Part shown: one piece after another, positions 5,064-12,800 of the stretch
How positions within the stretch are numbered: position 1 is the first letter of the stretch
Layout: every line of letters starts with the position of its first letter
Source of the DNA: Epilithonimonas caeni DSM 17710
Lineage (GTDB): Bacteria > Bacteroidota > Bacteroidia > Flavobacteriales > Weeksellaceae
Direction of reading: 5' to 3'
NCBI RefSeq assembly: GCF_000426465.1
Contig: NZ_KE384528.1
Coordinates: 301,698 to 365,697 of the forward strand
Length of the DNA: 64,000 bases
Program-made: the position numbers and the translations under genes
Notes under the pieces: generated by a model
What the model was told of the DNA's origin: nothing
Seen by the model: the letters and a program-made list of their open reading frames with translations, nothing else
Database searches by the model: none

Positions 5064-5100
5064 TAGTTCATTGTTTGAATTGTTAATTTATCAAGAGAGG

Positions 5101-5174
5101 CTTCGACAGGCTCAACCTGACAACGATTAAATATTACGACTAGTTCTCGAGATGTCATCCTGAGCTTGTCGAAG
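5101..5174. repeat. REP-like inverted pair (REPIN-type palindrome)
   Basis: CTTCGACAGGCTCAACCTGACA-type copy at 5101-5122 faces a reversed copy at 5153-5174 across a 30-bp spacer. Both share the core CTTCGAnA..CTCA...TGACA with the three copies at 9398-9911. The element lies in the 171-bp gap between the PhyH gene and the serine hydrolase. Confidence 0.8.
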
Positions 5175-5234
5175 GGTCTCTTATAAAAAAACCACATAGT
5201 AATCGCTGCTCTTTGGTATTAATCGATGGATAAG

Positions 5235-7978: not shown

Positions 7979-9337
7979 ATGGAAAGTAAAAAAGAATTCT
8001 TCCTCGAGTGCTACAAACTCGGGATAATCAAGTTCGGGCGTTTCACACTGAAAAGTGGGATTGAGAGTCCGTTTTATGTTGATTTGCGGCCACTCGCTTC
8101 TGACCCAAAAATCCTGAAAAAACTAGCCAATTATCTTTTGGAAATGCTTCCTTTGGATAATTTTGATATCATCTGCGGTGTTCCTTATGCGGCACTGCCT
8201 ATGGCAACTGCAATGTCTCTTCAAAGTTATATCCCGTTGATTATCAAAAGAAAAGAAGCTAAATCTTACGGAACAAAAAAACTGATTGAAGGCATCTATG
8301 AAAAAGGACAGAACTGTCTTTTGGTAGAAGATGTCATCACATCCGGAAAATCTTTGGTTGAGACGATTGATGAAGTTGAAAATGAAGGAATCAAGGTTTC
8401 TGATATCGTTGTAGTTTTGGACAGAGAGCAAGGCGGGAAAGAAAAACTAGAGGAAAAAGGTTATAAAGTCCATTCACTTTTCAATATTTCTGAAGTGGTG
8501 GAAATCCTGAGAGAAGTTAATTATATCGATGACGAAGAAGTGGCAAGAATCCGAGATTTTGTGAATGGAAATCAAGTTGTTTTCGAAGAGAAGAAACGTT
8601 TGTCTTACGAACAAAAACTGGAAGTTGCTGAACATTCTTTCGCTAAGAAAATCCTTGAAATTGCCATTGAAAAAAAGTCAAACCTGATTGCTTCGGCTGA
8701 TTTCATCACGACAAAAGAATTATTGGATTTCGCTGATTTTGTTGGACCTCATATTGTAGCGCTGAAAACTCACATTGACATTCTGAATGATTTCGATGCT
8801 GATGAAACCATACTTCCGCTAAAAGATTTGGCGACAAAACATAATTTCCTTTTAATGGAAGACCGGAAATTTGCTGACATCGGAAACACACAGGAGTTGC
8901 AGTTTTCTTATGGCACCTATAAGATTTCAAACTGGACAGACCTTGTGACTTCTCACGTGATTGGCGGAAGCAAAAGTTTGGATTGCTTTATAAATGTTGG
9001 TGTGGTTGCGATTTTAGGAATGTCTTCTCAGGGAACTTTGACCGATTCTCATTATCGTGAAGAAGCAATGAAAGTGATAGAAAATCACCCAAATATTATT
9101 GGTTGCGTGGCTCAAAATCAAATTTCTGATAGTCTTCTCCTTTTTACGCCTGGTGTGAATCTTGGCACAACTGGCGATGACAAAGGACAACAATACAATT
9201 CACCGGAACATGTTATAAAAAATTATAATACCGATTTTATCATCGTTGGAAGAGGAATTTATAAAGCTGATGAACCGGAACAAGAGGCTTTGCGTTACAA
9301 AAATGAGGGCTGGAAAGCTTATCAGGATTCATTGTAA
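7979..9337 (+). CDS. pyrEF: Bifunctional orotate phosphoribosyltransferase / OMP decarboxylase
   Basis: 452 residues fusing the last two steps of UMP synthesis. Residues 1 to about 200 are PyrE, with the PRPP-binding motif CLLVEDVITSGKS (113-125). Residues from about 210 are OMP decarboxylase, with Lys263 (ALKTH) and the catalytic array Asp295-Arg-Lys297-Phe-Ala-Asp300 (DRKFADIGNT). The domain order, PyrE first, is that of eukaryotic UMP synthase, and DRKFADIGNT is the form seen in that branch. No other pyrimidine gene is adjacent. It has its own promoter and a terminator downstream. Confidence 0.93.
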   Translation: MESKKEFFLECYKLGIIKFGRFTLKSGIESPFYVDLRPLASDPKILKKLANYLLEMLPLDNFDIICGVPYAALPMATAMSLQSYIPLIIKRKEAKSYGTKKLIEGIYEKGQNCLLVEDVITSGKSLVETIDEVENEGIKVSDIVVVLDREQGGKEKLEEKGYKVHSLFNISEVVEILREVNYIDDEEVARIRDFVNGNQVVFEEKKRLSYEQKLEVAEHSFAKKILEIAIEKKSNLIASADFITTKELLDFADFVGPHIVALKTHIDILNDFDADETILPLKDLATKHNFLLMEDRKFADIGNTQELQFSYGTYKISNWTDLVTSHVIGGSKSLDCFINVGVVAILGMSSQGTLTDSHYREEAMKVIENHPNIIGCVAQNQISDSLLLFTPGVNLGTTGDDKGQQYNSPEHVIKNYNTDFIIVGRGIYKADEPEQEALRYKNEGWKAYQDSL

Positions 9338-9397: not shown

Positions 9398-9438
9398 TTG
9401 TCAGTCTGAGGCTCTCGAAGACATATAAATACTTCAAA
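9398..9438 (-). repeat. 41-bp inverted repeat, left copy (REP family)
   Basis: Perfect reverse complement of 9809-9849. It lies immediately after the pyrEF terminator and contains the core in minus orientation. Confidence 0.95.
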
Positions 9439-9466
9439 AATCGTCAGATTTTTTTCCTTGTAAAAA

Positions 9467-9763
9467 TTACTGATTCGGAAACTTTCTCTTTGAAAGATTG
9501 GGTAATTTCTCCCATTCATCATTAATGACTGCTTCTTTTTTGGCTCTACTCCAACCTTTCAGTTGCTTTTCAAAAGCAATGGCTTGATTAACATCATTGA
9601 ACTCTGTGTAGTAAACAATTTCAACTGGTCGTCTTGTATAGGTATAAGAATTAGGGTTTTGACCATTTTGATGATATAGAAAGCGTGTTTCCAAATCATT
9701 TGTTACACCTGTATAATAGGTATTGTCGGTACATAGTAGGATGTAAACGTAATATCTTTTCAT
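9467..9763 (-). CDS. Single-domain GIY-YIG endonuclease family protein (UPF0213/YhbQ type)
   Basis: 98 residues, almost entirely one GIY-YIG domain. VYI (6-8) and YTG (17-19) form the signature strands, followed by Arg27, His31 and the metal-binding Glu65 in AIAFEKQLKGW, so all expected catalytic positions are present. The basic C-terminal tail (GWSRAKKEA, LSKRKFPNQ) could bind DNA. Stand-alone members of this size are of unknown role; larger relatives are homing nucleases, UvrC and SLX1. The gene is transcribed opposite to both neighbours and sits between perfect 41-bp inverted repeats, which suggests it acts on those repeats. Confidence 0.9.
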   Translation of the reverse strand: MKRYYVYILLCTDNTYYTGVTNDLETRFLYHQNGQNPNSYTYTRRPVEIVYYTEFNDVNQAIAFEKQLKGWSRAKKEAVINDEWEKLPNLSKRKFPNQ

Positions 9764-9808
9764 AATTGTGTTTTAGCCAAAGTTAATTAAAATTGGAAAA
9801 AGCAGAGC

Positions 9809-9849
9809 TTTGAAGTATTTATATGTCTTCGAGAGCCTCAGACTGACAA
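9809..9849 (+). repeat. 41-bp inverted repeat, right copy (REP family)
   Basis: Perfect inverted partner of 9398-9438. It sits 45 bp upstream of the GIY-YIG start codon, so it may also overlap that gene's promoter. Confidence 0.95.
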
Positions 9850-9887
9850 TGCTAATACCAAATTTTTTTTGACACTTCATTTTAAAA

Positions 9888-9911
9888 GTCTTCGAGAGCC
9901 TCAGACCGACA
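9888..9911 (+). repeat. Third REP-like copy
   Basis: The 24 bp match positions 9825-9848 with a single mismatch, in the same orientation and 63 bp further on. It lies in the spacer before the outer-membrane protein gene. Confidence 0.9.
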
Positions 9912-9983
9912 GAGAAAATTTTAACAACCAAATATTAATAATCATCAGAAAAAATTAGTAGTTTTAAATACTGATTAATTTTG

Positions 9984-12800
9984 ATGAAGCGATTTTTTTT
10001 GTGTTTGGTTCTATTGTTGGCAAATTTCTGGGCAAAGTCTCAGCAAGACAGCATTTTGCTTCATGTAAAGCTTAATGAAGACAAAAAATCAATCTCAGTA
10101 GAACAGACGTTGATCTATCATAATCCTCATCAGAAATCAATCAACCAAATAAAGCTTCTGAATTGGGTTTCTGCTTATCAGAAACGCAAAACGCCACTTC
10201 TCAAAAGAAAGGTTGAAGACCGCAAAAAAGACCTTTATTTTGCTAAAGACAACCAATTGGGAAAATTGGAAAATCTCCAATATTCTTACGGAAACACGTC
10301 TTCGGAAATCCTTAATAAAACTCAGGAAAACATTTTCATTCCACTTGCCGAACCTTTGGAATCAGGGAAAAGCATCAAACTTAATTTAAAATATCAGATT
10401 CAGCTTCCTGATGCACGTTTTACAGGTTACGGAGTTGATGTTAATAAGATTGTTTTAAAATACTTTTTTCTAGTTCCCGAAACTTACGAAACCGAAAATC
10501 AAAGCAATTCTTTTTATCGAGATACAGAAGAAACAGCCAACGCAGGTTCTTTCTGGAAAGTCGATTTTCAAGTCCCACAGAATTGGAAAATCTACTCCAA
10601 TCTTAATCAAAATAATGATTCTGGGTTCGAAGGAAGCTCTGTCAACGACCCGGAATTCCAAATTTCAAAAGAAATCTATCCTGAATTTTCAATGGATGTT
10701 GACGGACAAAAAATCATTGTTCAATTAGCCTATCAGGTTTCTGAATATCAAAGACAGACCTTGCCCTTTCTTTTGCCAACGCATCTCAAATTCATAAAAG
10801 CAAGAGTCGGAAATCTTCCCGATAAATTATTCATCACTCAAAAATTCCTGAATAAAGAAGAGTTTATCGGGATTGATGACATCAAATTCTGGAAATTCAA
10901 ATATCAATTGTTCACGGATTATGAAAAGGCTGATTTGGATTATTTCAGTGCAGTTTCGAAGAAAATAATAGACGAATATTTTATTACCAACAAAACGCAG
11001 GATCATTGGCTGAAAAATGGTTTGAAGTCTTATCTCGAAATCCAGTATCTTAAAAACTTTTACCCAAATCATAAACTTCTGGGAAATCTTCCGGATAATG
11101 CAAAAATATTTGGCATCAAACCTTTGAAGTTATTCCATGCTTCAAAGCTGAAACTTTCCGAGCGTTATGGATTAGCTTATCATTATATCTCGACTCAGAA
11201 TCTTGACCAGAAAATCGACACGCCTTTTGATCAGTTGAGCAATTTCAACACGACCGCAATCAGTCAATTTGAAATGGGAAGCCTTCTGAATTATATTTCG
11301 GAATATCAAGGTTCCCAATCATTTGATTCTTTTCTAAAACGCTATTTGTCTTCAATATACAGAACCAAAACAACAGGTAAAGAGTTTCTTAATCATCTTG
11401 AAAAATTCACCAATGGAAAATCGACTTTTCTGAATCAAATGATGAGTGAAAAGCACAGAATTAATTTTAATCTAAAGAATTTTAAAGAACAAAATCAGGA
11501 TTTTGTTGTTCATATTAAGGACAAAAATGCGTCTAATATTCCTCTGAAAATTGAATCCGAAAGTAAAAATGATGAAAAGAAAATATACTGGAAAGAGGGA
11601 AATTTTCAAATAAAAGATACACTTAGAATTCCAAAAGAAAATGTAAATAAAATTGTTTTGAATGATAATTATGCTTTCCCAGAAGCTAATTTCCGAGATA
11701 ATTACATCTATACGAAAGGATTTTTCTCTAACACAAAAAAGATAAGATTCAAACTCGTAAAGGATGTTCAAAACCCGGAATATAATGAGATCTTCCTGAC
11801 TCCAAGATTGACTTTCAATGCTTATGACAAAATTTTGCTTGGTCTTAACTTTAAGAACCAAGGGATTTTTGACCAGAAATTTGATTATTCATTCACACCA
11901 TATTATAGTACAGGAACAGGAAAACTGACCGGTTCTGGTGCGATTGGCTATTCTATTCTACCACCAGATAGTTTTTTCAGAAGCTGGAATTTTACACTTT
12001 CGGGGTCCTACTTTCATTATAATACCAATCTGGCCTATAAGAGATTTGGAGCCGGGACTTCCATCAATTTCAATAAAAATCCAAGAAGTGCGATTGGAAG
12101 AAGCTTGTACTTCTCTTACAATTATTATGACAGAGAATTGACCCCATTGATGATTGAGAATAATCTCTATTCCAAATATAATCTTTGGAATCTCGGCTAT
12201 TCTTATTCAGACAATCGGCTGATACATGAAAAATATATCTCAGGAAATCTGCAGTGGATGGAGGATTTTCAGAAGATTTCCGCAGAAGCTTTTTATCGCT
12301 GGGAATTTTCGAAGGACAGGAAAATCAGTTTCCGATGGTTTGCCGGATATTTTATAAAGAATGAAACCAAAAATACTTTATTCAATTATGGGTTATCACA
12401 GGTTTCCAACTATTCTTTTTCATATGGGCTATTGGGGCAAAGCGCCACTTCAGGGATTCTTTCTCAGCAGTTTATTTTGGCAGAAGGCGGTTTCAAATCG
12501 ATGTTCAATACATCGGTTAATCAATTTATCACCAGCTTGAATGTAGATTCTCATCTTTGGAAATGGTTCAATCTCTATGCAGATGCCGGTGTTTATAAAA
12601 ATAAGAACATGGCAACTCAGTTCATTTGGGATTCTGGAGTGAAAGTGAAAGTTGTTCCTGACTTTTTGGAAGTTTATTTCCCAGTAGCATCTAGTCTGGG
12701 TTTTGAACCTGGATTCAAAAACTACGGTTACAGAATCCGATATACATTGGTTCTGAATCTTGGCGCATTGATCAATAATCTGAGACGCGGGGTTTATTGA
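9984..12800 (+). CDS. Outer-membrane protein: M1-aminopeptidase-like ectodomain plus C-terminal beta-barrel
   Basis: 938 residues from the ATG at 9984; a TTG one codon earlier is less likely. A signal peptide (MKRFFLCLVLLLANFWAKSQ) is followed by an N-terminal region resembling the M1 (gluzincin) beta-saddle domain and a helical region where DHWLKNGLKSYLE (about 338-350) matches the WLNEGFASYLE element of M1 peptidases. The preceding HExxH zinc motif is absent: the equivalent stretch reads KKIIDEYF, so the domain is probably inactive as a peptidase. The last 350 residues alternate polar and aromatic in strands (for example TFTLSGSYFHY-like, YSYSDNRL, ending TLVLNLG) as in a barrel. Function unknown. 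Confidence 0.7.
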   Translation: MKRFFLCLVLLLANFWAKSQQDSILLHVKLNEDKKSISVEQTLIYHNPHQKSINQIKLLNWVSAYQKRKTPLLKRKVEDRKKDLYFAKDNQLGKLENLQYSYGNTSSEILNKTQENIFIPLAEPLESGKSIKLNLKYQIQLPDARFTGYGVDVNKIVLKYFFLVPETYETENQSNSFYRDTEETANAGSFWKVDFQVPQNWKIYSNLNQNNDSGFEGSSVNDPEFQISKEIYPEFSMDVDGQKIIVQLAYQVSEYQRQTLPFLLPTHLKFIKARVGNLPDKLFITQKFLNKEEFIGIDDIKFWKFKYQLFTDYEKADLDYFSAVSKKIIDEYFITNKTQDHWLKNGLKSYLEIQYLKNFYPNHKLLGNLPDNAKIFGIKPLKLFHASKLKLSERYGLAYHYISTQNLDQKIDTPFDQLSNFNTTAISQFEMGSLLNYISEYQGSQSFDSFLKRYLSSIYRTKTTGKEFLNHLEKFTNGKSTFLNQMMSEKHRINFNLKNFKEQNQDFVVHIKDKNASNIPLKIESESKNDEKKIYWKEGNFQIKDTLRIPKENVNKIVLNDNYAFPEANFRDNYIYTKGFFSNTKKIRFKLVKDVQNPEYNEIFLTPRLTFNAYDKILLGLNFKNQGIFDQKFDYSFTPYYSTGTGKLTGSGAIGYSILPPDSFFRSWNFTLSGSYFHYNTNLAYKRFGAGTSINFNKNPRSAIGRSLYFSYNYYDRELTPLMIENNLYSKYNLWNLGYSYSDNRLIHEKYISGNLQWMEDFQKISAEAFYRWEFSKDRKISFRWFAGYFIKNETKNTLFNYGLSQVSNYSFSYGLLGQSATSGILSQQFILAEGGFKSMFNTSVNQFITSLNVDSHLWKWFNLYADAGVYKNKNMATQFIWDSGVKVKVVPDFLEVYFPVASSLGFEPGFKNYGYRIRYTLVLNLGALINNLRRGVY

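Follow-up and report, generated by a model that had tools for sequence, protein, structure and literature searches.

In REPIN/RAYT systems, GTAG-tagged REPs are accompanied by a Y1 HUH tyrosine transposase, which is thought to bring about the spread or the loss of REPs. A study published in Nature Communications in 2025 reportedly describes Ssn, a family of GIY-YIG nucleases that cut single-stranded DNA at specific sites and have a repeated target (NTS) in Neisseria. The cognate sequence is said to be present in hundreds of genomic copies and many homologues to have specificities of their own; the emphasis of the study reportedly lay on ssDNA cutting and transformation.

The window analyzed here is a stretch of 64,000 nt from Epilithonimonas caeni DSM 17710. 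The surrounding genome comprises 4.11 Mb in 16 contigs, and its nearest named protein relatives belong to Epilithonimonas and Chryseobacterium. As originally noted, the window has a REPIN/RAYT-like layout with a GIY-YIG enzyme: the enzyme gene is flanked by inverted REPs of a dispersed type and of matching subtype. Tagged imperfect hairpins, inverted dimers and a large number of dispersed copies are further features in common. In contrast to REPIN/RAYT, the enzyme is GIY-YIG and not HUH, the tag is TGTC/CGTC instead of GTAG, and the dimers of this genome carry their tags inside. Like the Ssn nucleases as reported, the window nuclease is a small stand-alone GIY-YIG protein with intact conserved residues; in comparison with Ssn, its flanking repeat is dispersed and subtype-matched and is a putative target. 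The anatomy of REP and tag, the REPIN-like dimers, the presence or absence between species, the tree congruence and the link to CGTC repeats described below may go beyond the Ssn study. Nevertheless, the Ssn family is probably prior art for a nuclease with a cognate repeat. Hence, the suggestion that the REP-spreading element is undescribed is doubtful. No paper linking GIY-YIG nucleases to REPs was found in the portion of the open-licence PMC literature covered by our search.

The CGTC REP superfamily of Di Nocera et al. (2013) includes Neisseria dRS3 and Rickettsia RPE-4 and RPE-6. According to the sections of that paper used here, its members have a CGTC tag, often TGTC, a stem of 8–9 bp, a loop of 4–5 nt and a CCA tail; they are without a dedicated transposase, and the authors left the mobiliser open (PMC3733652). 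The window REPs share the unpaired CGTC/TGTC tag at one end. However, the stem of their class-A TCGA type is shorter and bulged, and those sections do not list this type; dimers there mainly have tags outside, whereas all 18 dimers of this genome have them inside (PMC3733652).

The nuclease gene and its REPs

The features of the locus are collected in Table 1.

Table 1. Positions of the nuclease gene and the REPs in the window.
Feature	Position	Strand	Basis or remark
Stand-alone GIY-YIG nuclease gene, UPF0213-like, 98 aa	9467-9763	minus	ORF list, PF01541, AlphaFold2, PDB profile relatives
Left 41-bp inverted-repeat arm	9398-9438	+	REP proper 9399-9423; TGTC tag outward, tail facing gene
Right 41-bp inverted-repeat arm	9809-9849	-	REP proper 9824-9848; TGTC tag outward
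Third REP copy, arm subtype	9881-9911	-	REP proper 9887-9911; TGTC tag; oriented as right arm
Left REP of tag-inside dimer, GCCTGTCG loop subtype	5098-5122	-	sequence comparison
Right REP of tag-inside dimer, GCTTGTCG loop subtype	5153-5177	+	sequence comparison

The neighbors of the gene are a pyrimidine-synthesis gene (7979-9337), whose name is deduced from its translation, on one side and a gene for 939 aa (9981-12800) on the other. Its product matches Pfam PF01541 with 63.8 bits (cut-off 22.6); no domain other than GIY-YIG, and in particular no Y1 HUH domain, was found in the 98 residues. The family-invariant or near-invariant residues Y7, Y17, G19, R27, H31 and E65 are intact. An AlphaFold2 model has a mean pLDDT of 92. 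The nearest solved sequences by profile are the small UPF0213/COG2827 proteins (YazA, YhbQ) with pdb entries 1zg2 and 1ywl, which are labeled hypothetical and given without a repeat partner.

The perfect inverted repeat around the gene is real: the two arms of 41 nt are 100% complementary and have 370 nt between them. Its core, which had been noticed again at position 9888, recurs there as a third copy of 31 nt matching the arms at 90%. An inverted pair had further been placed at 5101-5174. The pair is present, but its limits differ, its units belong to other REP subtypes and the tags point inside; the spacer (5123-5152) is 30 nt long. With an inverted-repeat score of 41, the flanks of the window gene exceed the maximum of 27 in 5533 control windows of the same geometry.

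The REP unit in each arm is TGTC-ANNC-TGAG....TCGAA-GNNT, a tagged hairpin with compensatory stem changes. The stem consists of 5 bp, a 2-nt bulge and another 2–3 bp, and the REPs beside the gene carry a GGCTCTCG loop with the tags outside. Scanning the genome with up to 3 mismatches gave 98 matches for GTCTGAGSYTCTCGAAGAC and 89 for CATCCTGAGCTTGTCGAAG (overlapping sets), compared to 3 and 0 for the reversed control patterns. Exact REP cores number 143, namely 72 of type a, 13 of type d and 58 of types b/c. In an alignment of 59 copies (42 distinct), in which TGTC is invariant because the copies were selected by this tag, the proposed stem pairs in 93.2% of the cells. The stem covariation score of these copies is 0.454; shuffles reach 0.126 and slid partners no more than 0.086, whereas two of five covariation measures did not rise above shuffles (pairs changed on both sides, 271/500; pair types, 100/500).

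At 54 REP loci of this genome, 18 pairs of opposite orientation are less than 150 nt apart and 41 copies are single; by a crude test, 14 of 77 copies lie inside an ORF. Tags are inside in all 18 dispersed dimers, the reverse of the arrangement at the gene flanks, and no simple excision model accounts for both arrangements. The dimer spacer measures 26–31 nt in 12 of the 18, and several dimers share a TTAGTATTAG-like motif. On the contig stretch G006:C65:12500-39124, thirteen type-a cores were seen, all in the same orientation.

Matched repeats at other GIY-YIG loci

A PF01541 search of the genome returned two stand-alone GIY-YIG genes and a frame of 603 codons taken as UvrC. The second stand-alone gene lies between murG and murC (names from translation) and is bracketed by inverted TGTCAGGCTGAGCCTGTCGAAGCC. 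Thus, both stand-alone genes are flanked by inverted REPs, and these are of different subtypes. Orthologues of the window type in five other genomes, 89–97% identical, have the window REP type on both sides, murG-murC-type genes of relatives carry their own type, and a third group carries CTGAGCGGAGTCGAAG. In subclades a (6 loci), b (5 loci) and d (7 loci), both flanks carry a REP loop type specific to the subclade; L078, L079 and L125 have the loop type of their subclade with one or two changed bases.

Two larger sets were compared. Set A holds 71 of 116 matches in relatives, the remaining matches being mostly weaker, and set B the best 80 of at least 489 GTDB matches. Exclusion of one locus with a flank of only 28 nt (L126) left 70 relatives' loci for the flank test, and L079 was excluded from the shuffle test. 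The threshold was the 99% level of the 5533 control windows, which span more than intergenic DNA. It was exceeded at 46 of the 70 relatives' loci and at 43 of the best 80 of at least 489 GTDB loci; with the GTDB part so defined, 89 of 150 loci lie above this level compared to 52 of the 5533 controls, and 61 of 150 have no flank repeat above it. The expectation, set beforehand, that other copies of the nuclease gene are associated with flanking repeats is supported.

The flanks also fit each other. Across 149 loci, with the same best 80 of at least 489 as GTDB part, left and right flanks match far better within a locus than between loci: the sum of left-right matches is 2562, compared to a maximum of 1752.5 in 2000 shuffles of the right flanks. 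In this same collection, again with the best 80 of at least 489 GTDB matches, class-A REPs occur on both sides at 59 of 149 loci compared to 4 of 1491 control windows. On 110 of 155 sides, the tag of the nearest tagged REP faces outward from the gene. A chance origin of the flank repeats is ruled out by the control windows and shuffles.

At the 3' ends of the GIY-YIG genes L076, L078, L079 and L089, the reading frame continues into the downstream REP and gives a protein tail (GFDSAQPD, GYDSAEPD, FDSAQPP). Such tails of database proteins may therefore be translated REPs. Beside neighboring frames of these loci, the REP reads as other peptides (LSLSKP, AEPVEA). Separately, clusters of GIY-YIG copies, some with internal stops, were observed at G051:C13:15037-16291, G030:C1:870963-872302 and G094:C31:267300-274103.

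The relation of REP class to nuclease phylogeny was examined on a tree of 91 nucleases (163 labeled loci, minus 71 without a class on both sides and one that was too short; L079 and L097 were excluded). The class changes 9 times, where 5 is the least possible and the shuffled mean is 31.7; none of 200 shuffles was as low. The classes are not blind, because their patterns were drawn up after viewing the flank repeats; some labels are loose (L093, L254), and those of up to ten alphaproteobacterial loci as well as the absence in L251 and L255 were set by hand. Many forks of the tree are open owing to the shortness of the proteins. Judged by these labels, REP class follows the nuclease tree.

For a wider comparison, a related GIY-YIG protein was run by tblastn against a plasmid collection, in which 33 records matched and 17 were examined (15, then 2 more). 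At 13 of the 15 loci (12 alphaproteobacterial) the flank inverted repeat exceeds the control maximum of its own locus, and 9 of 15 exceed the pooled 99% control of the set, which is raised to 26.5 by an inverted repeat elsewhere in L255; among the 15, L251 and L255 have no flank repeat. CGTC-tagged REPs were present at 10 of the 15 loci. The loci of S. meliloti pSymB and of A. lipoferum, where the gene sits between sufB and sufC, show a CGTC tag, a stem of 8–9 bp, a short loop and a CCA tail, and the N. aromaticivorans gene is flanked by a CGTC variant; all three species are named in the sections of the CGTC REP study used here (PMC3733652). The N. gonorrhoeae homologue lies inside a dRS3-like (CGTC) array with CGTC repeats on both sides, and so does the Aeromonas caviae gene lie between CGTC repeats. 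According to the cited sections, CGTC repeats also occur in C. crescentus, R. palustris and Neisseriae (PMC3733652), and C. crescentus, R. palustris and N. meningitidis are listed, in the portion of PMC1839093 consulted, among species with stand-alone copies of this endonuclease. On a Planktothrix agardhii plasmid (L253), the GIY-YIG gene has an MmeI-type restriction gene on one side and DISARM drmA on the other.

Site history and turnover of the REPs

Within the genus, 23 genomes were compared, among them that of the window, and six carry the window-type gene at the same site; in one (G022) the gene segment is inverted at the shared site. The search for empty sites revealed a clean intergenic gap of 62–63 nt in six others (G010, G017, G007, G005, G012, G004), and several same-genus genomes hold a single REP or apparent REP scars in this place. 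G009 and G014 gave no neighbor within reach. Recent transposition of the gene, initially considered as an origin of the perfect arms, is consequently rejected. Since the gene is at the same site in six genomes, with gaps or scars elsewhere, it seems to be long established at this site and to have been lost more than once, and the REPs appear to be more labile.

Twelve REP dimers were compared with relatives. At the site of one (C1:161168), four relatives show a clean absence. For two dimers, some relatives have a single REP and others none, and two are each common to one relative; two have no two-sided relative, and five sites are diverged, deleted or otherwise filled. At L269, L272 and L274 (sites d10, d11 and d18), the place of the dimer is sometimes taken by another inverted repeat family (CCACATAGACACA ... 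TGTGGT).

The proposed tie between REPs and presence of the gene is found only in part. Type-a REPs are more common in carriers, with 26–72 copies compared to 0–44 in non-carriers (p=0.006, one-sided, ignoring kinship), and type-b counts also differ (p=0.017). However, several non-carriers hold about 40 type-a REPs, and for type d the presence of the gene makes no significant difference to the counts (p=0.17). Beyond the genus, one or more REPs of the three patterns were found in 17 of 27 genomes with the gene compared to 12 of 48 without; at least 5 REPs are present in 5 of the 48 genomes without a detected GIY-YIG gene, and none in 10 of the 27 with it.

A putative nuclease-REP partnership

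Compared across clades and phyla, nuclease gene and flanking tagged REP present themselves as matched pairs that diverge together. Owing to the matched flanks, the tree congruence and the CGTC relatives, nuclease and REPs look like cognate partners, a relation well supported by comparison. We propose, with a probability of roughly 70%, that the nuclease is a site-specific endonuclease targeting the flanking and dispersed REP hairpin, and that nicking of ssDNA followed by repair turns the REPs over. The gene remains at stable chromosomal sites, while its REPs occur as numerous dispersed single units and dimers, which vary from one species to the next. The enzyme would bind the unpaired TGTC/CGTC tag together with the hairpin and then nick, most likely in single-stranded DNA, such as that of replication gaps or of DNA entering by transformation. 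Once the cut is repaired or the strands are rejoined, REPs could be spread, lost or homogenized, with hydrolysis and host ligation presumably taking the place of the covalent tyrosine intermediate of a Y1 transposase. The flanking inverted copies may preserve the linkage between the gene and its targets and let the segment flip. From the reported Ssn work, single-strand cutting at the repeat is the likeliest activity, and the nuclease might thereby disperse REPs, control incoming DNA, or both.

The cutting of ssDNA at the repeat may instead serve to modulate transformation or to block incoming DNA, as Ssn reportedly does, with the repeats kept as targets or marks. The position of the N. gonorrhoeae homologue in a dRS3-like array fits this role, which also accounts for REPs that persist while the gene stays in place. 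Alone, it explains neither the presence and absence of dimers between relatives nor the dimer spacer of 26–31 nt in 12 of 18 cases. We regard it as a serious, though still tentative, explanation; it is compatible with REP turnover by the nuclease rather than opposed to it.

Two other explanations treat the GIY-YIG gene and its repeats as independent. If a RAYT-type Y1 (HUH) transposase of the same genome moved the REPs, the gene would be a bystander. The genome does have four PF01797 genes; a tag-inside dimer lies about 1.2 kb from one (L067) and at about 0.6 kb from another (L065) there is a degenerate match resembling a REP (C2:105518, with 3 mismatches). Yet TGTC REPs bracket none of the four, and L065, L066 and L067 have their own long flanking inverted repeats, which bear no relation to TGTC REPs (flank scores of 41.5, 26 and 25.5, with 13.5 for the fourth gene, as raw scores without a control set of their own). 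Furthermore, no Y1 gene flanked by CGTC REPs is reported in the sections of the 2013 study used here (PMC3733652). Because three of the four genes have different flanking repeats, the Y1 transposases of this genome were rejected as mobiliser, and such a role is very improbable. The repeats of L065, L066 and L067, for example around GAACCCGAAGGGTTC, are separate RAYT/TIRYT-like systems. A function of the small GIY-YIG protein in DNA repair, as a backup similar to UvrC or Cho, with REPs gathering in permissive intergenic DNA, is hardly more probable. In the portion of PMC1839093 consulted, such a role is proposed for three Caulobacter copies, one of them with an SOS box. Neither the matched inverted subtypes on the two sides nor the tree congruence would be expected from it, and control windows of the same loci, although they span more than intergenic DNA, rarely show flank repeats.

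Turnover of the REPs by their cognate nuclease can be extended, more speculatively, to the whole CGTC/TGTC superfamily, here taken to comprise the class-A TCGA repeats (Bacteroidota, Cyanobacteria, gammaproteobacteria), Neisseria dRS3 and the alphaproteobacterial CGTC repeats. Stand-alone GIY-YIG nucleases might be its missing mobilisers, acting independently of HUH enzymes by nicking of ssDNA hairpins and host rejoining; on balance we rather doubt a claim of this breadth. A nuclease flanked by subtype-matched repeats across several phyla is a candidate mobiliser for the CGTC REPs, which are transposase-less according to the cited sections of PMC3733652. If true, this would be a second, HUH-independent route by which bacterial genomes gain hundreds of palindromic repeats. 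It would also suggest a function for many proteins annotated as 'GIY-YIG nuclease family protein' and would offer a biological rationale for intergenic repeats occasionally taken for the tails of proteins.
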